The notes under the pieces: generated by a model
Databases searched by the model: none
Seen by the model: only the letters and a program-made list of their open reading frames with translations
Told to the model about the DNA's origin: nothing
Part shown: positions 39,226 through 57,339 of the stretch, one piece after another
How the letters are laid out: each line of letters starts with the position of its first letter
How positions within the stretch are numbered: the stretch's first letter is position 1
DNA from: Anaerohalosphaeraceae bacterium
GTDB lineage: Bacteria; Planctomycetota; Phycisphaerae; Sedimentisphaerales; UBA12454
Reading direction: 5' to 3'
DNA length: 64,000 nucleotides
Assembly (NCBI GenBank): GCA_021108375.1
Contig: JAIORA010000002.1
Span: 62,001 to 126,000 of the forward strand
Translations under genes and position numbers: made by a program

Positions 39226-40323
39226 CTAAATAACAGCGGAAATATAGGCCTCTATCTTTTCAGCAAGAGACTCAACACAATCAGTCCGCCGAAAATCACA
39301 CTCAGCAGAATCAATCCTAAATAACGGACTCTTAGTCCAATCAGAAAACAATCTCTCATACTCAGCGTCAAGCGATTGTAAAAAATCCAAATCTATGTCC
39401 TGCTCGTACGGACGGTTGCGGCTGTGTATCCGCTCCAGACATAATCGCGGCTCAAGTCTTAAATATATAACAACAGCAGGAGTAACAACAGACTCGCACA
39501 ACTGAATGTTTATCTCATTATACCGCTTCAACTGCTCGCTATCGAGCCAGGCAGATGCGTAAATTTTTTCTTTGTCAATTACATAATCGCTGATGACGAT
39601 TCGGCCAGGCTGCAAATTTTCGCTGCTTAACTGAGCGACCCTGCTCCTTAAAAAGAACAACTGCGAATCGAGAGCTAATGTCTTATCGCCGGCATAGACC
39701 TGCGGCATAAAAGGGTTCTCGCTGTAAGCCTCCTTGAGAATTTCACAGTTGAACCTTTCAGCAAGAGCATCTGCCAAAGTCGTTTTGCCCGCACCTATAA
39801 CGCCTGCAATACTAATTAACTGCGGTTTTTTGGAATCGAAATAAAAATCGCCGTCATTGAGCCTGTCCGCCAAAACAGATACGCTCTCTTTGAGAATGGG
39901 ATGTACAAAATTCGGCGCAAGTTCACAAAGGCCATCCAGAACAAACGAACGCAAATGCAACTGCCTGTGCGGGATGGTGAGTGAATCCGTATCGATGATT
40001 CTATCGCCAAAGAAAAGTATATCCAAATCGATTGGACGGCTGAGCCATTGTTCGCTTGTTGCCACCCTGCCGAGCGAGCTTTCAATTTGCTTTAAACAAT
40101 CGAGAAGTTGCTGGCCGTTCAAATCTGTTCGAAGTTCAGCGACCGCGTTTAAATAATCGCCCTGCTTTTTACCAGTTAAGGGTTTTGTGGTAATCTCTCT
40201 GCTGACTTTGCAAACAGTGATATGTTCGTTTTCACCGAGCAGTCTGAGCGCATCGCGAAAATTCGCGGCGGGAGCACCCATATTACTGCCAAGACCAATA
40301 TATACAGTTGTTTGTTTAGACAT
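39226..40323 (-). CDS. Fusion of HPPK (FolK) and a deoxynucleoside kinase
   Basis: Residues 1-160 are 6-hydroxymethyl-7,8-dihydropterin pyrophosphokinase of folate synthesis: YIGLGSNMG, SRPIDLDILFFGD (95-107) with the metal-binding Asp pair, and PHRQLHLRSFVLDGL. Residues 168-365 are a deoxyribonucleoside kinase of the dCK/dGK type: P-loop GVIGAGKTT (174-182), a DYVIDKEKIYAS segment, an ARG-type LRLEPRLCLERI lid region and RNRPYEQDIDLDFL. The two activities are unrelated in pathway but both feed nucleotide synthesis. Similar fusions are known in some Bacteroidetes; I infer a real single protein because the frame is continuous and no start with a ribosome site is visible at the junction. It starts 9 nt after dapL and is co-transcribed with it. 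Confidence 0.9.
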   Translation of the reverse strand: MSKQTTVYIGLGSNMGAPAANFRDALRLLGENEHITVCKVSREITTKPLTGKKQGDYLNAVAELRTDLNGQQLLDCLKQIESSLGRVATSEQWLSRPIDLDILFFGDRIIDTDSLTIPHRQLHLRSFVLDGLCELAPNFVHPILKESVSVLADRLNDGDFYFDSKKPQLISIAGVIGAGKTTLADALAERFNCEILKEAYSENPFMPQVYAGDKTLALDSQLFFLRSRVAQLSSENLQPGRIVISDYVIDKEKIYASAWLDSEQLKRYNEINIQLCESVVTPAVVIYLRLEPRLCLERIHSRNRPYEQDIDLDFLQSLDAEYERLFSDWTKSPLFRIDSAECDFRRTDCVESLAEKIEAYISAVI

Positions 40324-41928: not shown

Positions 41929-41956
41929 CAAAACGGAGACAAAGTGAATAATTTAA

Positions 41957-42162: not shown

Positions 42163-45100
42163 ATGATGAAAAAGTATTCCGCGATATTAATTATTGTTCT
42201 GAGCCTTTACAGTTTTGCCGGCGCAGCAACCTTTAACGTCCCTGCCGATTATCCGAATATCCAGGCGGCGGTGAACGCAGCCAGTGACGGCAATGAGGTC
42301 ATTGTCGCAGATGACCCTACGCCGTACACCGGCGTTGGCAACCGCGATATTGATTTCGGCGGTAAACTTATAACCGTAAGGAGCGCAAGCGATAATCCGT
42401 CTGCCTGTATTATTGACTGCCAGGGCTTAGGCAGAGGCTTTTTGTTTCAAACAGGTGAAACCGGGGCGGCAGTCGTGCGCGGATTTACTATTAAAAACGG
42501 CGACGAATACTATGGCGGTGCTATCGAATGCGATGGCGCATCACCGGAAATTAACAACTGTATAATTACAAATAATACGGCAAGCTATGGTGGAGCTATC
42601 GACTGCTTTGAGGCATCGCCGGCAATAATAAACTGTGTTATAATCAATAACACCAGCGACAATGACGGCGGCGCCATCGAATGCGGAAGCGATGCATCGC
42701 CTGAAATTAGAAACTGCCTTATAGCTAATAATACCTCTACTTTATATGGCGGTGCTATCGATTGCTACGACGCATCTTCGCCTGTAATAACGAACTGTAC
42801 AATCGTAAACAACAGCGGCACTTCCAATCGAGGCGGCGTTTATACCTTTGATTCTTCAAGCCCGGTTATAAGAAACAGTATTTTGTGGGGTAATGGCGAT
42901 GATATTGACGGTGCAAGCGCAGAGTACTCGTGTATTCAGGACGGCGATGCCGGAACGGGCAATATCAGTACCGACCCGATGTTTAGAGCAGGGCCCTTAG
43001 GCGATTATTATCTGCGCCAGATTACCGGCGGACAACTCGCAGACAGCGTTGCTGTCGATGGTGGCGGCGATGACGCTACTGTTATCTTCGGCGCAGGACA
43101 TTCCTACACAACGGCGACAAACAATACTCTGGACGACCCTACCGGCGGAACTGTCGATATGGGTTACCATTACCCCGACAGCGGTGCGGCAGCTCAGCAT
43201 AACCTTACAACAGTTGTTGACCCCAATGGGAATTTTGGCACGCTCGACCCGAATAATCCCGCACCCGGCGTTGCGTATGACGAATTCAACGAAGTGCTGC
43301 TTACAGCAAGCCCTGACGCGGGTTTTACTGTCGCAAGCTGGAATGGAACTGACGATGACGGCAGTGTCGCTTTGACTAATGTCGTAACAATCGACGGCGA
43401 TAAAACAGTTACCGTGAAATTTCTCGGCCTGACAATGCACAAACTGCTTACCGGTGTCAACGGAACTAATGGCACGGTTTTGCCTGACAACTCCGGAAAC
43501 AATTTTTACCCTGAATATTCGCAGGTTGATATTACGGCCACTCCTGACGCAGGTTATGTAGTTAATCAGTGGTACGATGGTAACACGGCAACATTCAATA
43601 TAAATGACCCCTGCACCTATACTGTAACAGCCGGGCCGAACGAAATATATACCACGATAATGGATGCCAATACTACCGTGCTGGCTGAGTTTGTTGAAGA
43701 CCCCTGCTCGTACAGGTTCGAGGCAAGAGTTGTGGGGGGCAATGGCACGGTAAGTCCAAAGCGACAGAGCTATCCCCAAAATATAGTTGTTCCCGTTGAC
43801 GCGACACCCGATGCGCATTATCACGTTAAAGAGTGGACAGTAAATGGTACTCCGTTAACCTTAACAGGAACGACCATTTTCGTAACAATGACCTCGGATA
43901 AGAGCGTTACGGTGGAATTTGAGGAAGACCCGACATTTGCAATAATAACGAGCAGCTTTGACATAAGCCACCCCAACCTGAGCGACCCAAATGCTGGCAA
44001 TGACCCGAACGTTTACGACCCGAATTACAGCGTCTACTACAACTTAGAAATCGATGCGAACATAGCTAATGACCCGAACGTCGGATACATCGAACCAAAT
44101 TATCCCGCAGGCGGAACAATTTATCAAAATGAAACAGGAATCTTTACGGCTCATCCAGCTATTGGTTACAAAATTTATTCGTGGTTCGATGCCAACACAA
44201 ATGCCAATGCATTTGACCCTTGCGACCCTAACACATACCATTTGATATACACTGATAGTGTAACACATAACGTAGTGATGGACGCAAACAAAGCAGTCAA
44301 AGCATTTTTCCAGCCTACACCAATATACACTCTGACAACCGATACATTTGGAGGGGTAACGGTTGCTCCTGATTATCAGGCAGGGGAAGACTTTGCAGAA
44401 GGTACGGTCGTTACGCTGACAGCAACGATTCCTGCCGGCGACGATGTAATCGTCTGGAGCGGAACAGATAACGATGGCTCAATACAACTTACAAATACTG
44501 TAACAATGGACTCCAACAAATCCGTAACGGTCGGTGTAAGAACGCCGATAACTCTGCACGTACCCGGGCAGTATCCATCCATAGGCGAAGCGGTTGACGC
44601 AGCTCAGGGCGGCGATACGATTATTGTATCCGAACGAGCGGGCGACCCTTATAACGAAAACGGAATCGACCTTGACGGCAAAGAAATTACAATCGCCGGT
44701 GAACATCCCGATGACCCGTGCTGTGTCGCGGCGACAGTTATTGACTGCCAAGGTCTTGACGCGGCATTCATACTGAAAAAAGGACAGGGCCGAGATACGG
44801 TTATTGACGGCCTGACAATTATCAACGGCGGCGGTGCACAAGACCCTGACAACCCAACAACAAACAGATACGGCGGAGCAATAGCGTGCTTTGAAGGTTC
44901 GGCCCCGATAATTTCTAACTGTGTTTTCAGAAACTGTGTTGCTCAGGGCCAAAACGGCTCAAACGGCGACCATGAGTACGATGACATCGGGGACTACGAC
45001 GACCTCCCTGACCAAATTGACGCTAATGAACCCGACGCTAATTTTCCGGACGGTCAAGCCGGAATATCCGGAATAGATGGAGCAGACGGCCAAAATGGAG

Positions 45101-48100
45101 CAGATGGCGAGGATGGCGGCGATGGCGGAGACGCATACGGCGGAGCTTTATATTTCAGCCTTTCAGGCAATCCGAAGATACTGAACTGTAAAATGATTAA
45201 CTGCTCGGCAGCAGGTGGTAATGGCGGCTGGGGCGGAGACGGCCAAAACGGACAAAACGGACAGACCGGACAGGCCGGCCAGACCGGACAAGAGGGTATG
45301 GAGGGCGACCCTAATATGCCTGGCGGTACAGGCGGTACAGGCGGTGATGGCGGTACTGGCGGTGATGGCGGCGATGGCGGCGAAGGCGGTAAAGGCGGCG
45401 ACGGCGGCGAAGCAATCGGCGGAGCGATTTATTTCGCAGGCAATAGTAATATAGATATGGAATACTGTGAGTTTATAGAGTGCAGCACAACGCCGGGTAT
45501 AGGCAACTATGCTGGTAACGCTGGTAACGCTGGCAATGCTGGAGATAGCGGTGAAGGCGGTACAGGCGGTGAGGGTGGTGATAACAGCGAACCCAATGGA
45601 ATCGACGGAATCGATGGGGCTGACGGAATTAGCGGATTGGCTGGTGACGGCGGAGACGGCGGACGCGGCGGCGATGGCGGAGTGAACGGCCAACTCTCAC
45701 ACGCAGGTGCTGTATTCTTCGGAGACACCTGCAATACGACTATGCTCGAAACGCTGTTTGAAGGCAATTTCACGGTAACTGACATGTTGCCGTTCAGATG
45801 CGACGCAGGTAACGGCGGTAACGGCGGTGATGGCGGCAGCGACCCTAACGATATAGGCGGCAACGGCGGCGAAGGTGGCGATGGCGGTACTCCGGGCAAC
45901 TCCGGCGACAACAAAGAAATAGGCGAAGGCGGTAACGGCGGCGATGGCGGCACAGGCGGCGGGGACTTCGGCGCAGGTGGTGATGGCGGCGACGCGACAA
46001 ACGGTGATACCGGCGGAACAATAGGCGGCGAAGGCGGCGAAGGCAATCCTGATGGTGTTGATGGTACCGACTATAGCGAGTCAGACGGAATATCGCCGTG
46101 GATTACAATGACAGCCATAGCCGGCGGTAACTACTACTCGCACGACTGCACTGTTACGATGACGAATTGTACTTTCAAAGGCAACCATACCGAAGACACG
46201 TGGACAAACACAAACTCCAGCGGTGGAGCAGAGTACTACGAAGAAAACTGCACACTAACAATAGACGGCTGCAAATTCGTAGACAATTACGTCGGCTCGT
46301 GGGGCCACGGTGGCGGGCAATGTCTCGCGGTGTGGGGCTACGGGCTAAGCATTACTGACAGCCAATATCTGGACAACCAGTGCGTCGGCTCCGGCGGCGG
46401 TGTTTACGTTGGCTGGGGAGTAAATATAGATATCAACAGAACAACATTCAGCGACAATATCGCCGGCTTCAGCAAAAACGGCTACCAAAACTATAGTTAC
46501 GGTGGCGGTATCTGCTGGAATAATAGTGGCTTTTCCGGAACAGTAAATATAAATGACAGCGAATTCACAAACAACTACGCCGCGTTCGGCGGAGGAATGT
46601 ACTGGTACAGCGATACAAATATGACAACAAATGTCAGGAGATGTTTCTTTGCTGACAATTCTGCAAATCACGGCGGCGGTATATACTTTAGCTTAGGCGA
46701 CCCTAACATCAGCGATTGTACTTTCAAGCGCAACCACGCGGAAGGTCTGTGGGTGTGGATGGACAACTGGTACTTTGAAGACTTCTACGGCGGTGGCGGC
46801 GCGATTATGGCGTTCAGTACTGACGCGGTTATAAAGGATTGTTCAATAAGCGAAAATACTACCAGCGGCTCCGGCGGCGGTGTGTATCTCGGAGGCGGCG
46901 CAAACTATCCATCGCTGAATAACTGTCTGATAACAGATAACGTCGCAACGCTTGATGGCGGCGGTGTAATAACATATTGGTACGTCGAATCTACTATAAG
47001 AAATTGTACAATCGTCGGTAACAGTGCCTATGATGTAATGGACGAAAATTACGGTAAAGGCGGCGGACTGAGTTGTTCGTATGAAAGCCAGACAACACTC
47101 ATCGACAGCATTGTGTGGGGCAATCTCGCAGTAGCCGGTGACCAGATTGCAGTAGGCAGCGACAGCGACCCGTACTATATTCAGCGGCCAGCAACGCTGA
47201 CCGTTTCGTACAGCGATATTGAAGGCTGGACGAACCCTGATTCCATATATGTTGAGCCTGGACGAACTCTTACTGATGCCGGCGGCGTAATCAGCGTTGA
47301 CCCGAATTTCATAGAGCCTTACTATCTGGCATTTGACAGCAATGCAGTTGATGCCGGTAGCCAGAGCGCGACAGCAGCAGGACTTGATACATATACAACA
47401 CATATAGACAACACGCCGGATGCCAACACGGTCGATATGGGTTACCATTACGGGCTGGGACAGTTCAGTCTCGTTATCATAGGTAACGGCAGTGTAACGG
47501 TTGACCCGAACAACTTCGACCCAGGTACCGGCTTATACAGCGGCAGTATGTTTACGCTGACGGCTGTGCCGGATTACGGATATAGAGTTAAGAGCTGGGA
47601 CGGAGCCGAAGAGGCCCCTGCCTGGAACACGAACATCAATACCGTTGTAGTTAACGGCATTAAGATTGTTACGGTAGAATTTGAAGTTGCCCACAATAAC
47701 ACCATTGATGTTTTCGGCGATGTTATGGGTATCCAAAAAGCTATCGATGACGCAGTCGATGGCGACACTATTAAGATTCATCCGGGTACATACGTCGGAA
47801 CAGGATTCTATGTCGATAAAAACATAACAATCGTCGGCGACCCTGAGAATCCGGAAACTGTTGTTATCGACTGCAATGACGAAAGTCCTGACAGCCGTGG
47901 CTTTGTACTCGTTGGCGATAATACTCATTCGGTAGAACTTAACGGCCTGACAATAATTAATTCGATTGTCTGGGTAGGCAATGTACACCAACCGGATGAC
48001 CCGGGCGAGGATGGTTGGCCTAACGAAGAGAACCGCGATAACGGAGCCGCTGACCTGTTTGGCGGAGCTATCAGGATATTGGGTAATCATACAGTAGCAA

Positions 48101-51100
48101 ACTGTATTATAAGAAATTGCTCCGTAACAGCCGGACACGCTTCAGACGGCGTAGCCGGAGGCGACCCTGAAGATGGCGAGTTACACGATGGCGGCGACGG
48201 CGGATTCGGCGGCAACGCTGGCGGAGCGGGTATATGCGTGTTCTGGGGAGAGCCGAATATAATCAACTGCACAGTCGAAGATTGCGTAGCTATCGGCGGA
48301 AATGCCGGTGATGGAGCCATCGGATGGACATTCCCAGACCCTCCCACACACCCGAGCGGTATAAGCGGGAACGGCGGCGGAGGCGGCAATGTTTATGGTG
48401 CCGGTGTTTATGTACGCAACGGCAGTCCGACTTTTGAAAATCTAACCGTCAACAATTGCCTGGCAATAGCTGGTAACGCAGGCGACGGCAGCGACGGCGC
48501 ACCGAACGCAAAAGGCGGCGATGGTGGTTTGCCGGGACAGATTAGAGGCGGTGGCGTTTATTGCGCAGTCAACTCTATGCCGGAATTTATAGACTGCGAC
48601 ATCGAAAATTGTACCGCTCTCGGCGGCTTTGCCGGCGATGGTGGTGATGGCGGCGAAATGGAAAGCGCAGAAATAGAAGGCGGATACGGCGGTCTTACAA
48701 CCGAGGCTGGCGCAGAACAAGGCGAAATATGGCGACATAGCGGTAATGGAAGCGGCGTATATTGTGACGAATGGTCAAGAGCGACATTCACAAATTGCAG
48801 CTTTGTTGACAATATCGGTTACGGCGGTATAAGCGGTCTTGGCGGACGTAACACCGTAAGTAACTGGCAGTGGCAGCCGAGGAAGAATTTCATAATGCCT
48901 GTTCACGGCGGCGGTGTTTACTGCTCTGAAAATTCTTCTGTAACATTTGACCAATGCCATATTGAAAATAACAGAACAGCATTCCTTTACGATTATGCCT
49001 CGCCTGACTTCAGTGATTTTCAGGGACTTGTATGCCCGGCAATCCTGCCTGACTATAACGATGCTGTAAGTAGCTATGACGGCGAGTTGATTGGCAGAGG
49101 CGGCGGTGCGTATCTATTAGAAACAGCATCGACAACAATCACAGATTGTAATTTCGTTGGCAACAGCTCACCTGTCGGCGGTGGTATTTACGCGTTTGAT
49201 TCCGGAATAAATATAGCAGACAGCAACATTATGGAAAATATCGCTTACTCTGGTGGTGGCGCACTTATCGAAGACAGTGTGGCCGACATCAATAATACGA
49301 TTTTCCAAAATAATGCGGCGGGAACCCAGGGCGGCGACGCTGAGTATCTCGGCAATGTCGATTTCGGTACCGGCGGTGGTTTGTACTCGATTTCAACGGA
49401 GTTAAATTTTGTAAATTCAACCATAACAGAAAACTATGCTAAACTTTACGGCGGCGGCGTGGTCATTGACGGCGATTTGCCGATGGCCGGTTGGCCAATA
49501 GTAAAGAACTGCCTTATAACCAGCAACAAAGCTGTCGAGGCAGGCGGCGGTATAGCGAGTATCTACTTCGCTGAGCCAATAATCGCAAATTGTACAATCG
49601 CTGAAAACAGGGTAAGCGATGCCAACGGTCTTGGCGGCGGTCTGTTCGGCTCTTACGGTAGTGATACATTCGTCGTTGACAGTATTATCTGGGGCAACAG
49701 CGGTGTTGACGGCGGACAAATTGCGCTGAGCAAAGGCGGGCCAGGAACAAACTACCCTGCCAACGCAGTCGTTATATACAACGATATAGACCTAAGAACG
49801 GTTGTGCCTTTTGAATTTGAATCTACTTCTGGTTCATCAGGCGGCAGCGGCACAGGTTTGCTTGTCAATGGACAGACAATTCAAAACCATATCGATGCTA
49901 ATGGAGTCGCTAACGTTATAGTAACATTAGTTGATTCGGAGATGGCGGGGTCAACGAACTGGAATTCATCAGCTTCTGTTGCCGCTCTCCAGGGTGATGT
50001 AGCACTTATTCAGCAGCAGGTACTGTCAACTCTTGACGCAGGTGAATTTGCCCTGCGTCAGCAACTGCAAAATACGCCTATCGTCAGCGGCAGTATAAGC
50101 CAATCCGGTCTGGACAAATTAGTTGCCAACCCGGCAGTAGCTCATATCGAACCGGTAAAACAGGTTCATCCCGCACTGGCACAGGGCATTCCGCTAATGC
50201 AGGCCCTGAGTGCGAGACAACAATTCAATGGTTCGGGTACTTCTGTTGCAATCGTTGATACGGGCATAGATTATACACATCCAATGCTCGGCGGCGGCGG
50301 CTTCCCGAACGCAAAAGTTATTGGCGGTTACGATACCGGCGAAAACGACACAGACCCAATGCCACTAAGCCAAGCACACGGCACGAATTGTGCTGGTATC
50401 GCAGCTGGTGATTTAGGAACTGTTGGAGATTACATCGGCGGTGTAGCTCACAGTGCAAGATTGTACGCACTTAAAGCAAATCCCGATGGTATGGGATACT
50501 TCTTCACTGACGCTATAATCGCAGCCTGGGACTGGTGTATAAGCCACAAAAATGATGACTCGGCAAACCCGATTCTGGTCATAAGCAATAGTCTCGGTGG
50601 AGGTAAATACTACAGTGCTGAAGAAGCAGACGATGACAATCCTGCAACTTTTGCTGCTGCAAGTCGCGCAAATGATGCAGGCATAACGGTAGTGGCAGCG
50701 TCCGGCAACGATGGGTACACCGATGGAATAAGTGCCCCGGCGGCAATGAGCAATATCATAAGCGTCGGTGCGGTTTACGATGGTGTATTTTTGTCCGGTG
50801 CGTGCGGGATAATGACAAGGCCTGATGATGTTACCTGCTATTCAAATACGGCAGACTTCCTTGACATTCTCGCGCCTTCAGAAAACGCCTATACCACCGA
50901 TATTGTCGGTGCGGGTGGATACGGCAGTGGAGATTACTATGCCTACTTTAACGGTACAAGCTCGGCGTGTCCCTATGCGGCTGGAGCTATTGCAGCTCTG
51001 CAAAATGCGGCGATTGAAAGCAAAGGGGCAGCACTTAGCCCTGAAGAAATCAGGACTACGCTCACAACTACCGGCGACCCTGTTACCGATACGAAGGTCA

Positions 51101-54100
51101 ACATTACCAAGCCGAGAGTTAATCTCGGAGCGGCAATCGCGATGCTGAGTGAAGCTGTTCCGATTTATCTCGAAGAAGGCTGTACAATATACGGAGTTGA
51201 GCCAAACACCGCAGACCCTAACGAAGCGTGGATGGTTTCGGCTGACAGCAATAATATCGATGATGACCCGAACTTTGTTTACGGATATTACCTGAGCCAT
51301 ATTGCTGCCAACCAGGAAATAGACAGCAACGCAATTGATGCAGGAAGCGACCTTGCTACTGCACTGGCAATGCATATTTACACGACACGTACAGACGGTG
51401 TAAACGATGTCAATACCGTTGATATGGGTTATCACTACTTAGCGGCTTATCCGAGCTACATTCTAACTCTTGAGGTAAACCAGCCGGGACTTCCAAATGA
51501 TGTGAATTATTATGGACATATCGAATTTGACTGGAACGACGTCAACACGACAGCGGCTACGCCATATAGTATCTATAAGGGTACTCCGGTCAAAATTGAA
51601 GCTGTGCCGGATGCCAACTACAGGGTTGCCAAGTGGTTTATTGAACTGCCCGACCCGAATTATGACGACCCGAATCAGACTTTCACAACGACCATAGAAA
51701 CTCGTGAGCGATATCGAGAAATCGTTATGACCAGCGATATAGCAATTACTGTTGAATTTGAATTTTATGAGCCAAGACATCTGTTCGTGCCTGATGAATA
51801 TGCAACTATCCAGGAAGCGGTAGATGCAGCGGAGCCGGGCGATACGATATATGTCTATCGCAAGGACAACGGAGACCCCCATTATATAACGGGTGCGGAC
51901 GGAATCGACCTTCAAGGCAAGGGTATAACAGTTCGTTCTGAAGACCCGAACGATGCGAATATTGTAGCGCAGACTGTTATCGACTGTCAGAACAACAGCA
52001 GAGCGTTTATCTTCCGGAACGAAGAGGATGCTAATACTATCATTGACGGCCTGACAATAATCAACGGTTCAGCTTCAGGTGGAATCGGTTATCCGGGCGG
52101 AACCGGTCCGTGGGACCCGTGCGACCCGAACACACGCTACGATGGCGGCGACGCTGCCGGTGATGGTTACGGCGGAGCGATGTACTTCGATGCCAACACC
52201 AGTCCGATTGTACGCAGATGTACAATTACGAACTGTCAGGCAACCGGCGGTATTGGCGGAGACGGTATTAAGGGATTCTCAGTTGATGCAGACGATGGAG
52301 CTGATAGGGCCGGCAGAGGCGGACACGGCGGTAACGGCAGCGGTAGCGGTTATGGCGGTGCGTTCTACTGCGACGCGAACAGCCATCCAACAATTGATTT
52401 CTGTTTCATCGAAAATTGCAAAGCTCTCGGTGGCATAGGCGGCGATGGCGGCGATGGCGGTAACGGTCTGGATGACAAGATTGGCGGCGATGGCGGTAAT
52501 GGCGGTAACGGCAACGGCAACGGTGCCGGCGGCGTAGTGTACTGCGAAGAAGACGCAGCTCCGAAATTTATCGATTGCAACTTCCCGGAAAACAATGCCT
52601 CGCAGGGCGTTGGCGGTACCGGCGGCAGCACCGGAGCAGGTACTATACCTGATGACCCTGATATTCGCCTTCCACATAACGGCTATAACGGCAGCAGCAA
52701 CGGCTCCGGTGTCGGAGGCGCAGGTTACTATACAGAAGCTACCATCGCAGACTTCAATAGCTGCCAGTTCATCAGCAACAGCAGTACCTCTGATGGCAGT
52801 ACAATACATAATGATGGTGGCGGAGCTCTTTACTTTGAGCCTAACTGTGTATCTGTTGAGCTTATCAGTTGCGACCTCTATGGCAATATGGCAACCGGCG
52901 GTGATGGCGGAGCCATCAAGTGTAAAGCCAAGAACACAATCAAACTTACCGGCTGCTACTTCGGCGGTAATAACTCAGATGGAGACGGCGGCGCGATTTG
53001 TGTCGGAGACACGGAAGACGCGAATACCGTTTTTCTTGAATTTACAGACTGTGCTATCACCGACAATACGGCTACGGCCTTCGGCGGTGGTATATACGCA
53101 ACGAGCTTTGACGCAGATATGATAGATTGCTACGTCAATAGAAACACCGCTACAAGCGGCGGTGGAATGTATCTGACGACACAAGTAGATGCCTCGACAG
53201 AATCTGAGCTCGAATTCGTTCGCGGCACCATTATGCAGAACAACGCTACCGGAGATTATGCCAACGGCGGAGGCGCATATATTGTTAATCTGCCGGCAAC
53301 GATAGTAAATGTGTGGGTAAAGGGCAACAGCTCTTTCTATGCCGGTGGTGGAATTATGTTCAGAGGCACTAAGACAAGCGAAACGGAAATATATAATTGT
53401 CTCTTTACAGAAAACACGGCCACTACCAGAGGCGGCGGTCTTTTGGTATCTATCAATTCCTCGCCTGAAATTACAAGCTGTACTTTCGTCAAAAACGGTG
53501 TGGCAGTGAGCGGTATGGGCGGTGCTATACTCTGTATCAACAACAGTTCGCCAATTATCGCCAATTGTATCTTCGCTGAATCCGGCCAGGTGGCTGTACG
53601 GGAAGGTAGTGCCGATAGCGTTGTCGATATGTCTTACTGTATGTTCGCCAAGAACATAAACGGCGATTATTATGAATTCGACTCCGGCAGAACATATAAA
53701 ACCTACGGTTCGACCGACCCAAATGAACTTGCCGCTTTAAATGCAGCGACCGGCGGTAATCATAGGATTGGTCTCAACACAACCTCTGATTTCACAAAGG
53801 GTACGTTGGGTGATTATTATCTGGTTCAGGCTATGAGTCTGGCAGTCAATAACGGAAGCGGCGACGCAAATGACGCTAACCTGCCGATTACCGGCGAGAC
53901 TATGGCTGACTACACGACAAACCCCAACGATGTTTTCGTCGCCGACAGCGGGCTGCTCGATATGGGTTATCACTATCCGAACCCGAACACTTTGGTAGAA
54001 TATACACTGACAACAATCGTCGATGGTGGTAACGGCGATATCATTCCAGCCACAGACCAGCACTACGCAGGCACAACGGTAGAACTTACCGCGGTACCGA

Positions 54101-57100
54101 GGACGGGCTGGCGAGTTAATAAGTGGAGCGGAACAGATGACGATACCAAGACAGAGGTAACAAACTATATAACCATAATCGGCGACAGGACTGTAAGTGT
54201 TTCTTATGAACTGCCAGATGTCCTTTATGTGCCGAGTGAATACACCGCGATTCAGTATGCAATTAACGATGCAAAGAGCGGTGATAAAATTGTTATGGCT
54301 CCGGGCATTTATCCCGAGCCGGACGTAAATTATGACTATGGTGCCATTATAATTAACGGCAAGAATATCGTTATAACGAGCAGCAATCCTGACGACCCGT
54401 GCATCGTTGCCGCTACGGTCTTTACAGAAAGCCGTTGGTATATAAATAATGTTGACAGGACTATGGTAATTGACGGAATAACTATCCGTGATGCTCATTA
54501 CCACGGCGGAAACTGCGACTGCCCACCGCGATGTGCCAAAGGTCCTACCGGAGACGGCAACAACGGCGGAAGCTTGATGGGCGGTGCAATTATACTAATC
54601 AACGCATCTCCAACAATCCGCAATACCAGAATTGTTGACTGCTCAGCTGGCGGCGGCAATGCTGCTCCTGCCTGCGATGAATGGGGAGACGGCGGCTGGG
54701 GCGGCTATGCAAGAGGCGGTGCGGTCGGCATCTCTCTCGGAAGCGACCCGCTCTTTGCTAACTGTGAATTTATCGACTGCTATGTACGAGGCGGTGACGG
54801 CGGTAACGCCCGCGAAAATAAGGGACACGGCGGAAGCTGGGGCGACCCGAATGATGATGTATGGCATACCTGGGACTGGGCACCGGCCGGCGGCTACGAA
54901 GAATACTGGTATTACAGCGGTTACGGCGGCGCGGTTTACTGTATGCCAGGCACAAAGCCATTATTTGAGAACTGTCTGTTCCAGGGCAATAGAGCCTATG
55001 GCGGTGTCTGCGGCAACAGTCACACAGCAGCGTGGCCGTGGCCTCAGTTTAACTATGTCATAGATGCCTTCGGCGGTGCGATTTTTGCCGGTGCAGGCAG
55101 TGAGCCTAATTTTGTTAATTGCAGCTTTATAGATAATGAGGCTGATACCAGAGGCCAGATAGATGGCGGCCTTGACCCGAACGAACCTAACAGCACAGAG
55201 TTCACTTTGCCAGATGCTGTTATAAGCTATGGCGGTGCGGTTGCGGCCGAAATTGGCGCGAAGCCGAAATTCACAAATTGTGATTTCAGCGAGAACATCG
55301 CCTGTTCCGGCGGTTCAATGTACCTTGAAGGTGCCGACGCGATGATTGATAATTGTACGTTTGAAGAGGGATGGTCAATGCTTGGCGGCGGGCTGTGTAT
55401 GATAGACAGTAATTCGATAATCTCGCAAAGCCGAATCAGCTCAAACACCGCTATCAACCCGACAGGCCAGGGCGGCGGTATATACAGCGTATCGTCAGGC
55501 ATACAGTTTATCGACAGCCAGCTCAATAGTAATATCGCAACCATTTCCGGCGGCGGTGCATACTTTGGCGGCGAAAGAGAGCCCAATATGTTCAACTGCC
55601 TCGTCGTTGACAATAGCGCAAACAGAGATGGCGGCGGTGTTTCAGCCAACTGGCACAGTCAACTGCTGATATCCAACTGTACCATCGCTGATAACACGGT
55701 TAGCGGCATCAACTTCGACGCGGGTTACGGCGGCGGCTTGAGCGCTGCTTATTACGCATACGTCGATGTCATAAACAGTATTATCTGGAGCAACACAGCC
55801 AGTTACGGCCTAAGCATATCGATAGGCAGTGTGTACGACCCGAATGCCAAGCCTATGGCAGAAGTTAAAGTCAGATATAGCGATATTCGCGGCGGTGAGG
55901 CCAACGTATTCGTTGATACCCCGCACGAGGCAGTACTCGACTGGAATGATATAGGTGAACCAAATACAAACCTGCTTGGTACCGCACTGGATGACCCGAA
56001 TTTCGTTGTCGGCCCACTGGGCGGTCTGCTGGAAAGTTACTACCTTAGCCAGTTGGATACAGGCGACCCGAGCCAGACTGTCGATAGCCCTGCTGTCAAT
56101 AGAGGCAGTGCAGATGCGGTAGATGTTGATATGTACAGACACACAACCAGGACAGACCATATGTTAGATGCTGGCACTGTCGATATGGGATACCATTATG
56201 TATTGGATACGTTCAGTAATGGTATTAGATGCGACTACAACTATGACGGTATTGTTGATATGCAGGATTTGACACTGTTCCTGCTTTACTGGCTCCAGGA
56301 TGATTGCCAATTCCCGGGCTGGTGCCACGACAGAGACCTGACAACCGATGGCGAAGTAGATATGGAAGACTATTCCGTCTTTGCCAGTCATTACGGAGGT
56401 ACGGAAGATGTTCCGCCTGAGCCGAACTCGATGACGTGGGCGGTAACTCCGCACTCCGCTGGAGATGCCGGGATTACAATGACGGCAACAACGGCAGTCG
56501 ATGATTTCAGTCCGCCAGTCGAGTACTACTTCCGTTGCGATTACAATCCTAATGGCGATGGCAGTGATAGAGATTGGGGCGAGGACAGCAGCTACAGCGA
56601 TGAAGGCCTTACTGAAGACGTTGCGTACGGCTACAAGGTAAGGGCCCGCGATTCAAGAGGCAACGAAACGGACTGGTCTGTCATCGGCTATGCTGTACCT
56701 GGCGAAGATGTAACTCCGCCAGAGCCGAATGTGATGACCTGGGCGTTAGTGCCTTATGCGACATCGCCTAACTCAGTGAGTATGACCGCTACGACAGCCA
56801 GCGATGGCAGCGGAGTTGAATATCGCTTCTACGAAACCAGCGGTGAGCCTAACGGGACAACAAGTGATTGGCAGGATAGCTCGATATTCGACGATTTCGG
56901 ACTCGACCCGTGTACAACCTATTCTTACTACGTTGTCGCACGAGATAAATCCAGTAATCACAACCAGACGGCACCCTCGACAACAGAATCGGTTACAACA
57001 TCAAGCGAGGCAAATGACCCTAATGTTACCGATGTATATCCGCCGGAACCTAACCCGAGCCAGTGGGCTACATATCCTTATGCATACGAGGAGTTCGGCA

Positions 57101-57339
57101 CGGGTACCTGGTATCACACAATGACAGCTGTTGTCGCCGAGGACACCAACACCGGAGGAAATAACCCGTGCGAGTACTACTTTGAATGCGTCGGCTTCTC
57201 CGACAGCGGCTGGACAACCAGTCCAACGTGGACATATCACGTCGGAGGCGCTGCAAACCATAGAACCTATCGTGTGCGAACCAGAGACTCTATAGGCAAC
57301 ACGGGTGGTTGGTCAATATATCGTCACACCTCTGATTAA
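42163..57339 (+). CDS. Giant secreted multi-beta-helix protein with embedded pro-subtilase
   Basis: About 5058 residues from the ATG at 42163 (GGAG 5-8 nt upstream; signal peptide KKYSAILIIVLSLYSFAGA). Five super-modules start near residues 24, 797, 1847, 3207 and 4020. Each opens with a cap such as VPADYPNIQAAVNAASDG, continues as right-handed parallel beta-helix coils (repeated GGAI-x-NC strands), and closes with VDMGYHY or LDMGYHY near 335, 1759, 3088, 3934 and 4674. InlB-type repeats link modules (five after the first, one after each of the next three). Module 3 contains an I9-like propeptide (about 2570-2675) and a subtilase with Asp2699, His2739, Asn2849 and Ser2933 (GTSSACP). Gly-Gly-X loops occur in modules 2, 3 and 4, with a shorter Gly-rich stretch in module 5. 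After residue 4690 come a dockerin-like pair (DYNYDGIVDMQDL) and three PPEPN-MTWA domains. Inference: extracellular adhesin or matrix protein. Confidence 0.9.
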   Translation: MMKKYSAILIIVLSLYSFAGAATFNVPADYPNIQAAVNAASDGNEVIVADDPTPYTGVGNRDIDFGGKLITVRSASDNPSACIIDCQGLGRGFLFQTGETGAAVVRGFTIKNGDEYYGGAIECDGASPEINNCIITNNTASYGGAIDCFEASPAIINCVIINNTSDNDGGAIECGSDASPEIRNCLIANNTSTLYGGAIDCYDASSPVITNCTIVNNSGTSNRGGVYTFDSSSPVIRNSILWGNGDDIDGASAEYSCIQDGDAGTGNISTDPMFRAGPLGDYYLRQITGGQLADSVAVDGGGDDATVIFGAGHSYTTATNNTLDDPTGGTVDMGYHYPDSGAAAQHNLTTVVDPNGNFGTLDPNNPAPGVAYDEFNEVLLTASPDAGFTVASWNGTDDDGSVALTNVVTIDGDKTVTVKFLGLTMHKLLTGVNGTNGTVLPDNSGNNFYPEYSQVDITATPDAGYVVNQWYDGNTATFNINDPCTYTVTAGPNEIYTTIMDANTTVLAEFVEDPCSYRFEARVVGGNGTVSPKRQSYPQNIVVPVDATPDAHYHVKEWTVNGTPLTLTGTTIFVTMTSDKSVTVEFEEDPTFAIITSSFDISHPNLSDPNAGNDPNVYDPNYSVYYNLEIDANIANDPNVGYIEPNYPAGGTIYQNETGIFTAHPAIGYKIYSWFDANTNANAFDPCDPNTYHLIYTDSVTHNVVMDANKAVKAFFQPTPIYTLTTDTFGGVTVAPDYQAGEDFAEGTVVTLTATIPAGDDVIVWSGTDNDGSIQLTNTVTMDSNKSVTVGVRTPITLHVPGQYPSIGEAVDAAQGGDTIIVSERAGDPYNENGIDLDGKEITIAGEHPDDPCCVAATVIDCQGLDAAFILKKGQGRDTVIDGLTIINGGGAQDPDNPTTNRYGGAIACFEGSAPIISNCVFRNCVAQGQNGSNGDHEYDDIGDYDDLPDQIDANEPDANFPDGQAGISGIDGADGQNGADGEDGGDGGDAYGGALYFSLSGNPKILNCKMINCSAAGGNGGWGGDGQNGQNGQTGQAGQTGQEGMEGDPNMPGGTGGTGGDGGTGGDGGDGGEGGKGGDGGEAIGGAIYFAGNSNIDMEYCEFIECSTTPGIGNYAGNAGNAGNAGDSGEGGTGGEGGDNSEPNGIDGIDGADGISGLAGDGGDGGRGGDGGVNGQLSHAGAVFFGDTCNTTMLETLFEGNFTVTDMLPFRCDAGNGGNGGDGGSDPNDIGGNGGEGGDGGTPGNSGDNKEIGEGGNGGDGGTGGGDFGAGGDGGDATNGDTGGTIGGEGGEGNPDGVDGTDYSESDGISPWITMTAIAGGNYYSHDCTVTMTNCTFKGNHTEDTWTNTNSSGGAEYYEENCTLTIDGCKFVDNYVGSWGHGGGQCLAVWGYGLSITDSQYLDNQCVGSGGGVYVGWGVNIDINRTTFSDNIAGFSKNGYQNYSYGGGICWNNSGFSGTVNINDSEFTNNYAAFGGGMYWYSDTNMTTNVRRCFFADNSANHGGGIYFSLGDPNISDCTFKRNHAEGLWVWMDNWYFEDFYGGGGAIMAFSTDAVIKDCSISENTTSGSGGGVYLGGGANYPSLNNCLITDNVATLDGGGVITYWYVESTIRNCTIVGNSAYDVMDENYGKGGGLSCSYESQTTLIDSIVWGNLAVAGDQIAVGSDSDPYYIQRPATLTVSYSDIEGWTNPDSIYVEPGRTLTDAGGVISVDPNFIEPYYLAFDSNAVDAGSQSATAAGLDTYTTHIDNTPDANTVDMGYHYGLGQFSLVIIGNGSVTVDPNNFDPGTGLYSGSMFTLTAVPDYGYRVKSWDGAEEAPAWNTNINTVVVNGIKIVTVEFEVAHNNTIDVFGDVMGIQKAIDDAVDGDTIKIHPGTYVGTGFYVDKNITIVGDPENPETVVIDCNDESPDSRGFVLVGDNTHSVELNGLTIINSIVWVGNVHQPDDPGEDGWPNEENRDNGAADLFGGAIRILGNHTVANCIIRNCSVTAGHASDGVAGGDPEDGELHDGGDGGFGGNAGGAGICVFWGEPNIINCTVEDCVAIGGNAGDGAIGWTFPDPPTHPSGISGNGGGGGNVYGAGVYVRNGSPTFENLTVNNCLAIAGNAGDGSDGAPNAKGGDGGLPGQIRGGGVYCAVNSMPEFIDCDIENCTALGGFAGDGGDGGEMESAEIEGGYGGLTTEAGAEQGEIWRHSGNGSGVYCDEWSRATFTNCSFVDNIGYGGISGLGGRNTVSNWQWQPRKNFIMPVHGGGVYCSENSSVTFDQCHIENNRTAFLYDYASPDFSDFQGLVCPAILPDYNDAVSSYDGELIGRGGGAYLLETASTTITDCNFVGNSSPVGGGIYAFDSGINIADSNIMENIAYSGGGALIEDSVADINNTIFQNNAAGTQGGDAEYLGNVDFGTGGGLYSISTELNFVNSTITENYAKLYGGGVVIDGDLPMAGWPIVKNCLITSNKAVEAGGGIASIYFAEPIIANCTIAENRVSDANGLGGGLFGSYGSDTFVVDSIIWGNSGVDGGQIALSKGGPGTNYPANAVVIYNDIDLRTVVPFEFESTSGSSGGSGTGLLVNGQTIQNHIDANGVANVIVTLVDSEMAGSTNWNSSASVAALQGDVALIQQQVLSTLDAGEFALRQQLQNTPIVSGSISQSGLDKLVANPAVAHIEPVKQVHPALAQGIPLMQALSARQQFNGSGTSVAIVDTGIDYTHPMLGGGGFPNAKVIGGYDTGENDTDPMPLSQAHGTNCAGIAAGDLGTVGDYIGGVAHSARLYALKANPDGMGYFFTDAIIAAWDWCISHKNDDSANPILVISNSLGGGKYYSAEEADDDNPATFAAASRANDAGITVVAASGNDGYTDGISAPAAMSNIISVGAVYDGVFLSGACGIMTRPDDVTCYSNTADFLDILAPSENAYTTDIVGAGGYGSGDYYAYFNGTSSACPYAAGAIAALQNAAIESKGAALSPEEIRTTLTTTGDPVTDTKVNITKPRVNLGAAIAMLSEAVPIYLEEGCTIYGVEPNTADPNEAWMVSADSNNIDDDPNFVYGYYLSHIAANQEIDSNAIDAGSDLATALAMHIYTTRTDGVNDVNTVDMGYHYLAAYPSYILTLEVNQPGLPNDVNYYGHIEFDWNDVNTTAATPYSIYKGTPVKIEAVPDANYRVAKWFIELPDPNYDDPNQTFTTTIETRERYREIVMTSDIAITVEFEFYEPRHLFVPDEYATIQEAVDAAEPGDTIYVYRKDNGDPHYITGADGIDLQGKGITVRSEDPNDANIVAQTVIDCQNNSRAFIFRNEEDANTIIDGLTIINGSASGGIGYPGGTGPWDPCDPNTRYDGGDAAGDGYGGAMYFDANTSPIVRRCTITNCQATGGIGGDGIKGFSVDADDGADRAGRGGHGGNGSGSGYGGAFYCDANSHPTIDFCFIENCKALGGIGGDGGDGGNGLDDKIGGDGGNGGNGNGNGAGGVVYCEEDAAPKFIDCNFPENNASQGVGGTGGSTGAGTIPDDPDIRLPHNGYNGSSNGSGVGGAGYYTEATIADFNSCQFISNSSTSDGSTIHNDGGGALYFEPNCVSVELISCDLYGNMATGGDGGAIKCKAKNTIKLTGCYFGGNNSDGDGGAICVGDTEDANTVFLEFTDCAITDNTATAFGGGIYATSFDADMIDCYVNRNTATSGGGMYLTTQVDASTESELEFVRGTIMQNNATGDYANGGGAYIVNLPATIVNVWVKGNSSFYAGGGIMFRGTKTSETEIYNCLFTENTATTRGGGLLVSINSSPEITSCTFVKNGVAVSGMGGAILCINNSSPIIANCIFAESGQVAVREGSADSVVDMSYCMFAKNINGDYYEFDSGRTYKTYGSTDPNELAALNAATGGNHRIGLNTTSDFTKGTLGDYYLVQAMSLAVNNGSGDANDANLPITGETMADYTTNPNDVFVADSGLLDMGYHYPNPNTLVEYTLTTIVDGGNGDIIPATDQHYAGTTVELTAVPRTGWRVNKWSGTDDDTKTEVTNYITIIGDRTVSVSYELPDVLYVPSEYTAIQYAINDAKSGDKIVMAPGIYPEPDVNYDYGAIIINGKNIVITSSNPDDPCIVAATVFTESRWYINNVDRTMVIDGITIRDAHYHGGNCDCPPRCAKGPTGDGNNGGSLMGGAIILINASPTIRNTRIVDCSAGGGNAAPACDEWGDGGWGGYARGGAVGISLGSDPLFANCEFIDCYVRGGDGGNARENKGHGGSWGDPNDDVWHTWDWAPAGGYEEYWYYSGYGGAVYCMPGTKPLFENCLFQGNRAYGGVCGNSHTAAWPWPQFNYVIDAFGGAIFAGAGSEPNFVNCSFIDNEADTRGQIDGGLDPNEPNSTEFTLPDAVISYGGAVAAEIGAKPKFTNCDFSENIACSGGSMYLEGADAMIDNCTFEEGWSMLGGGLCMIDSNSIISQSRISSNTAINPTGQGGGIYSVSSGIQFIDSQLNSNIATISGGGAYFGGEREPNMFNCLVVDNSANRDGGGVSANWHSQLLISNCTIADNTVSGINFDAGYGGGLSAAYYAYVDVINSIIWSNTASYGLSISIGSVYDPNAKPMAEVKVRYSDIRGGEANVFVDTPHEAVLDWNDIGEPNTNLLGTALDDPNFVVGPLGGLLESYYLSQLDTGDPSQTVDSPAVNRGSADAVDVDMYRHTTRTDHMLDAGTVDMGYHYVLDTFSNGIRCDYNYDGIVDMQDLTLFLLYWLQDDCQFPGWCHDRDLTTDGEVDMEDYSVFASHYGGTEDVPPEPNSMTWAVTPHSAGDAGITMTATTAVDDFSPPVEYYFRCDYNPNGDGSDRDWGEDSSYSDEGLTEDVAYGYKVRARDSRGNETDWSVIGYAVPGEDVTPPEPNVMTWALVPYATSPNSVSMTATTASDGSGVEYRFYETSGEPNGTTSDWQDSSIFDDFGLDPCTTYSYYVVARDKSSNHNQTAPSTTESVTTSSEANDPNVTDVYPPEPNPSQWATYPYAYEEFGTGTWYHTMTAVVAEDTNTGGNNPCEYYFECVGFSDSGWTTSPTWTYHVGGAANHRTYRVRTRDSIGNTGGWSIYRHTSD

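Follow-up and report, generated by a model that had tools for sequence, protein, structure and literature searches.

The window analysed here is a stretch of 64,000 nucleotides from contig JAIORA010000002.1 of an Anaerohalosphaeraceae bacterium (order Sedimentisphaerales, phylum Planctomycetota), and it contains one uninterrupted reading frame for a giant fibre protein, which an alternative GTG start at 41944 would extend by 73 aa (Table 1). The frame matched Beta_helix (PF13229, E 5e-38) in seven stretches, Flg_new_2 repeats, and Peptidase_S8 (PF00082, E 1.3e-37, 130 bits); the PF13229 match together with the regular coils of an AF2 model identifies a right-handed beta-helix. Profile HMMs derived from cap and closing-motif sequences of the window itself, so that training and target proteins were the same, recovered the five modules of cap, helix and DMGYHY described by the initial annotation, with caps at residues 26, 800, 1850, 3209 and 4023, closing motifs at residues 266, 1708, 3030, 3872 and 4606, and DMGYHY at residues 332, 1758, 3087, 3933 and 4674. 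Judged by its hydrophobic N-terminal segment, the protein is probably secreted, and it may be located on the cell surface. Modules 2 (approximately 45400–46400) and 4 (52100–52500) also carry long Gly/Asp/Asn-rich loops that resemble collagen or PGRS sequences (GQNGQNGQTGQAGQ..., GGDGGDGG).

Table 1. Features of the fibre gene (positions in the window; "socket" denotes the loop ahead of the closing motif of a module)
Feature	Position	Strand	Basis or remark
Giant beta-helix fibre protein, 5058 aa	42163..57339	+	Single ORF; Pfam Beta_helix, Flg_new_2, Peptidase_S8
Probable signal peptide MMKKYSAILIIVLSLYSFAGA	42163..42225	+	Direct reading; hydrophobic N-terminus preceding the first cap
Module 1, cap 26 to closing motif 338, without cassette	42238..43176	+	Own profile HMMs
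Module 2, residues 800–1764, socket type, empty (YSDIEGWTNPDSIYVEPG...DPNF)	44560..47454	+	Own profiles
Module 3, cap and beta-helix to last strand VVIYNDI, residues 1850–2544	47710..49794	+	Pfam, profiles, AF2
Low-complexity Gly/Ser linker (RTVVPFEFESTSGSSGGSGTG)	49795..49857	+	Direct reading; variable in relatives
I9-like propeptide, residues 2566–2674, predicted end ...ALAQ/GIPL	49858..50184	+	
S8 subtilase catalytic domain, residues 2675–2998	50185..51156	+	PF00082; PDB AK.1 protease, E 3e-19
Catalytic Asp2699	50257..50259	+	Conserved in 42/42 family members
Catalytic His2739	50377..50379	+	Conserved across family alignment
Oxyanion-hole Asn2849	50707..50709	+	Conserved across family alignment
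Catalytic Ser2933	50959..50961	+	Conserved across family alignment
Socket rim and closing motif of module 3, residues 3000–3092	51160..51438	+	
Module 4, residues 3209–3939, without cassette	51787..53979	+	Own profiles
Module 5, residues 4023–4680, socket type, empty	54229..56202	+	Own profiles
Dockerin-like EF-hand pair	56218..56397	+	Kept in relatives; under Pfam/NCBIfam cut-offs
C-terminal tail, about three Fn3-like repeats	56398..57336	+	fn3 sub-threshold; tail conserved in relatives

No translocator domain was present among the Pfam matches of the protein, whose C-terminus consists of the dockerin-like and Fn3-like regions. Cohesin (PF00963) had no match in the genome of origin (G000, 93% complete) and the dockerin-like pair is sub-threshold, so that the protein does not classify as a cellulosome component; several dockerin type I domains occur in this genome, without a recognisable cohesin. 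Outside the fibre gene, the genome gave one weak match only to the beta-helix modules. The gene neighbourhood comprised housekeeping genes only, with no associated system, and elsewhere in the window a single ORF (39226–40323, reverse strand) encodes an HPPK fused to a deoxynucleoside kinase.

The S8 region (residues 2545–3010) lies between the cap and the closing motif of module 3 and in no other module. The profiles, the PF00082 match and the intact catalytic residues thus bear out a complete pro-subtilase inside module 3 only, as had been read from the sequence at first sight, and the positions given then for D2699, H2739, N2849, S2933, VVIYNDIDL (2536), DDDPNF (3033), YYLS (3042) and the five DMGYHY motifs were exact. 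The insertion after VVIYNDIDL is real, with limits at approximately residues 2541 and 2998, and its outline needed two corrections: the Gly/Ser linker precedes the propeptide, and the resumed helix end already begins with PIYLEEG... from residue ~3000, reading PIYLEEG...NNIDDDPNF...YYLS...DMGYHY. The linker on the 5′ side of the propeptide is flexible and variable, and the C-terminus of the S8 domain joins the socket rim nearly without a linker.

In an alignment of 42 family members, namely 26 inserted copies (including that of the window), 14 stand-alone enzymes and 2 N-terminal copies, the catalytic set of Asp, His, Asn and Ser is intact throughout, with good conservation of L[AR]Q/[GAS][ILM] at the pro/mature junction. 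The domain directly before the catalytic domain is an I9-like propeptide. This agrees with the initial annotation, since 8 of 11 propeptides from the family reached E<=1 against PF05922 (I9), the best at 4e-6, though the window copy alone gave no match; a profile search with the propeptide matched pro-domains of solved subtilases in the PDB. Mean pairwise identity is 0.43 for the propeptide and 0.62 for the catalytic domain among inserted copies, and 0.38 and 0.60 among stand-alone copies. As its constraint relative to the catalytic domain matches that of the stand-alone enzymes, the propeptide of the inserted copies is probably still in use. The junction motif occurred 17 times in 21 ORFs, every time at the pro/mature junction, and these ORFs gave no sign of extra self-cleavage sites between modules, an absence that is not significant by itself given a shuffled expectation of 0.7.

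The structure prediction proposed at the outset succeeded in part. An AF2 model of residues 2300–3100, made with three sequences, gave the beta-helix a pLDDT of about 65–90 over most of 2310–2530 and the propeptide the topology beta-alpha-beta-beta-alpha-beta, with unprocessed pro-subtilisin E as the best fold match of a low-confidence model. The catalytic domain and the closing motif stayed below pLDDT 50, and only the helix and the propeptide are usable. For the empty module 2, the strands were modelled up to YSDI and the closing half was likewise below 50.

The search for other proteins with the order beta-helix, I9, S8, beta-helix was productive, and what might have been taken for a one-off protein proved to be widespread: the same two junctions were found in about 29 genomes of one order (families f1, f6 and f7), including G033, whose genome is a single contig. 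In a search of 98 relatives, the insert copies are mostly 50–66% identical and lie inside ORFs of about 1600–12,800 aa. In each, a strand with YSDIGP or YSDIDL at its end is followed by a low-complexity linker, a propeptide with LVDxQTIY..., the S8 domain and a closing sequence PIYVEEGCTLxG...NIxxDPxFVxGYYLS...VDMGYHY. These recurring junctions exclude a chimeric join of subtilase and beta-helix genes. The genome of origin is a draft of 55 contigs, in which an assembly or binning artefact could in principle have fused the two genes, but the recurrence of the junctions, also in the single contig of G033, and the missing GC break (0.51/0.50/0.51 over the junctions, with a modest GC3 dip within the insert) reduce the probability of such an artefact to practically nil. 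The viral contigs searched contained no relative. The fibre family is broader than the protease, with 77 of the 98 relatives matching the last module and tail, and complete ORFs follow a common plan of signal peptide, two to twelve modules, dockerin-like repeat and Fn3-like tail.

Regarding the origin of the insert, a first tree that included the distant outgroup L081 had a very long branch, and a careful tree was made without it. There, the inserted copies and the two N-terminal copies form one clade, separated from 14 stand-alone secreted subtilases with branch support of 100/99. Because the N-terminal copies nest among the inserted ones, the best tree does not make the latter strictly monophyletic on their own, although their monophyly was not rejected (AU p 0.19). 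Stand-alone relatives extend to other orders of the class, with a single case elsewhere in the phylum, and matches that continue through the socket rim are found in this order only. Socket-type S8 domains at the fibre N-terminus, outside any module, were seen at L133 (G406), L061 (G090) and L075 (G082). A single insertion in the ancestor of f1, f6 and f7 with few subsequent moves to the N-terminus would fit this pattern best, and the cassette was probably acquired once, in that ancestor of the three families. The statement that subtilases usually stand at the N-terminus holds for a second, distant S8 lineage in some sister fibres, where it follows the signal peptide with triad motifs mostly intact (L165, L166, L167, L168, L169, L172, L173, L179 and L181; also G079, G026 and G067); some sister fibres have both N-terminal and socket proteases.

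The same loop also exists without a protease. Within the window protein, the filled socket of module 3 (VIYNDIDL-insert-PIYLEEG...DDDPNF) has empty counterparts in module 2 (VSYSDIEGWTNPDSIYVEPG...DPNF) and module 5 (VRYSDIRGGEANVFVD...DPNF). Scanning for long gaps ahead of closing motifs revealed other whole domains in this loop among the relatives: the in-module domains comprise 28 S8, 11 vWA, 6 NIDO, 2 choice-of-anchor-L and 1 propeller-like domain, all 48 of which sit 14–56 residues ahead of the closing motif (one further NIDO reaches the end of its ORF and was left out of the 48). The vWA cassettes match PF00092 and have the metal-site motif DTTGSMG, NIDO cassettes match PF06119 (E 1e-26 and 2e-32), and the choice-of-anchor-L cassette matches NF038133 (E 1e-73). 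Non-protease cassettes were detected in G010, G026, G042, G044, G045, G060, G067, G075 and G079 (loci L046, L128-129, L175, L126-127, L167, L173, L059-060, L172 and L123-125), and different cassettes can alternate along one fibre, as in G079 (S8, NIDO, S8 and vWA in four modules) and G044 (propeller-like, S8, vWA, vWA, S8). A strict pattern for the socket-type helix end, GxQIAV...P..V.I.YSDI, was found in 40 of 48 cassette modules, compared with 48 of the 125 that are empty (Fisher p 8e-8), and by visual inspection the other cassette modules share this helix end wherever their upstream end could be read. Matches to a vWA cassette query span the socket rim and came only from members of the order, in 8 of the 298 class genomes searched. 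From these sequence patterns, the pre-closing loop looks like a general socket for swappable whole domains. The idea that self-processing, as suggested by the initial annotation, explains the insertion is not supported, as the same loop holds non-cutting vWA, NIDO and choice-of-anchor-L domains in sister modules.

We therefore favor, with reasonable confidence, a secreted modular fibre in which the socket loop displays cassettes, here a self-activating pro-subtilase whose source would be a secreted stand-alone subtilase of these bacteria. A socket-type module ends with a last strand ...YSDI followed by PIYVEEG...DPxF...YYLS...DMGYHY, and the loop between them would accept globular domains; in module 3, the cassette consists of the flexible linker, the I9 propeptide and an S8 domain tightly fused to the socket rim. 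Once exported, the protease would be folded by its I9 domain and would cut once at LAQ/GIPL, after Gln2674. The conserved motif at the propeptide junction makes such self-processing plausible. The N-terminal half would keep the propeptide, and the presumably active protease would sit on the side of the fibre with a covalent tie to the C-terminal half alone. The N-terminal half is probably held by contacts between helix and closing motif and by the propeptide. Because the closing motif is retained and conserved, the halves likely remain docked, and a nicked but assembled fibre is the somewhat better supported outcome of the cut. We propose more tentatively, and with some doubt, a programmable fibre with a true socket in which unrelated domains are exchanged and the protease makes a self-nicked fibre separable at a defined joint.

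Other functions of the protease can be weighed against this displayed cassette. Since the propeptide lies on the N-terminal side, the cut necessarily breaks the chain, and self-cleavage followed by propeptide breakdown might serve to free the N-terminal half (modules 1 and 2 with the greater part of helix 3) from a C-terminal half that stays in place; the conserved pro/mature junction, which occurs once wherever it is present in a fibre, would suit such a severing device. However, cutting is not what the site was selected for, because non-proteolytic cassettes share the socket, and the closing motif after the insert is conserved as if docking were still required, which makes severing an unlikely purpose. 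The conserved propeptide is also what would be expected if it remained on the fibre as a permanent inhibitor of a latent protease, to be activated by another protease or a signal, and subtilase propeptides are known to act as inhibitors (PMC10580911); yet the triad and the junction look fully competent, and we consider permanent latency rather improbable. That the S8 domain is dead and purely structural, serving as a spacer or binding module, would be in keeping with the non-enzymatic nature of the remaining socket cassettes, but is very hard to reconcile with a triad and oxyanion Asn that are intact in all inserted copies.

Among known systems, the subtilase autotransporters, such as Ssp of Serratia marcescens, likewise combine a subtilase and a parallel beta-helix in one secreted protein, with the protease at the N-terminus, where it caps the helix, and a translocator at the C-terminus (PMC9977779). 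In the window protein, by contrast, the protease has its own I9 propeptide and lies within an internal helix, ahead of its closing motif (residues 2566–2998, in module 3), rather than at the N-terminus, and no Pfam translocator or C-terminal translocator beta-barrel was matched. Globular subdomains also protrude from the side of the beta-helix in the SPATE autotransporters Pet and Hbp, for instance the loop subdomain d2 of Pet (PMC9977779). The SPATE protease, however, is trypsin-like and N-terminal, whereas here an S8 protease lies inside a module. SPATEs are not known to have exchangeable domains at a single fixed site. Closer in sequence are secreted stand-alone S8 proteases of the same bacteria with a C-terminal dockerin (L062, L063 and L067), which belong to the same S8/I9 family (51–56% identical), share the junction LAQGIPL, and differ in that the propeptide immediately follows the signal peptide, a beta-helix is missing and an extra Cys-rich loop is present. 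Phage T4 gp5 and the endosialidase tailspikes with an intramolecular chaperone are beta-helix proteins too, and the enzyme or chaperone part released by their self-cleavage can remain bound, but they form trimeric triple-stranded helices and their proteases are unrelated. In the literature searched, no paper dealt with Planctomycetes beta-helix proteins that have a subtilase or vWA domain.

Most beta-helix proteins known to carry a protease are autotransporters, in which the enzyme is N-terminal. The fibres described here, which belong to one order of Planctomycetota and run from 2000 to nearly 13,000 residues, admit unrelated whole folds at one fixed loop and keep the closing motif. Such a fibre would be a natural scaffold for the spaced display of enzymes and binders and would serve as a test of how repeat proteins tolerate insertions, and a pro-enzyme whose activation would cut its own scaffold raises the testable question of whether the fibre holds together.
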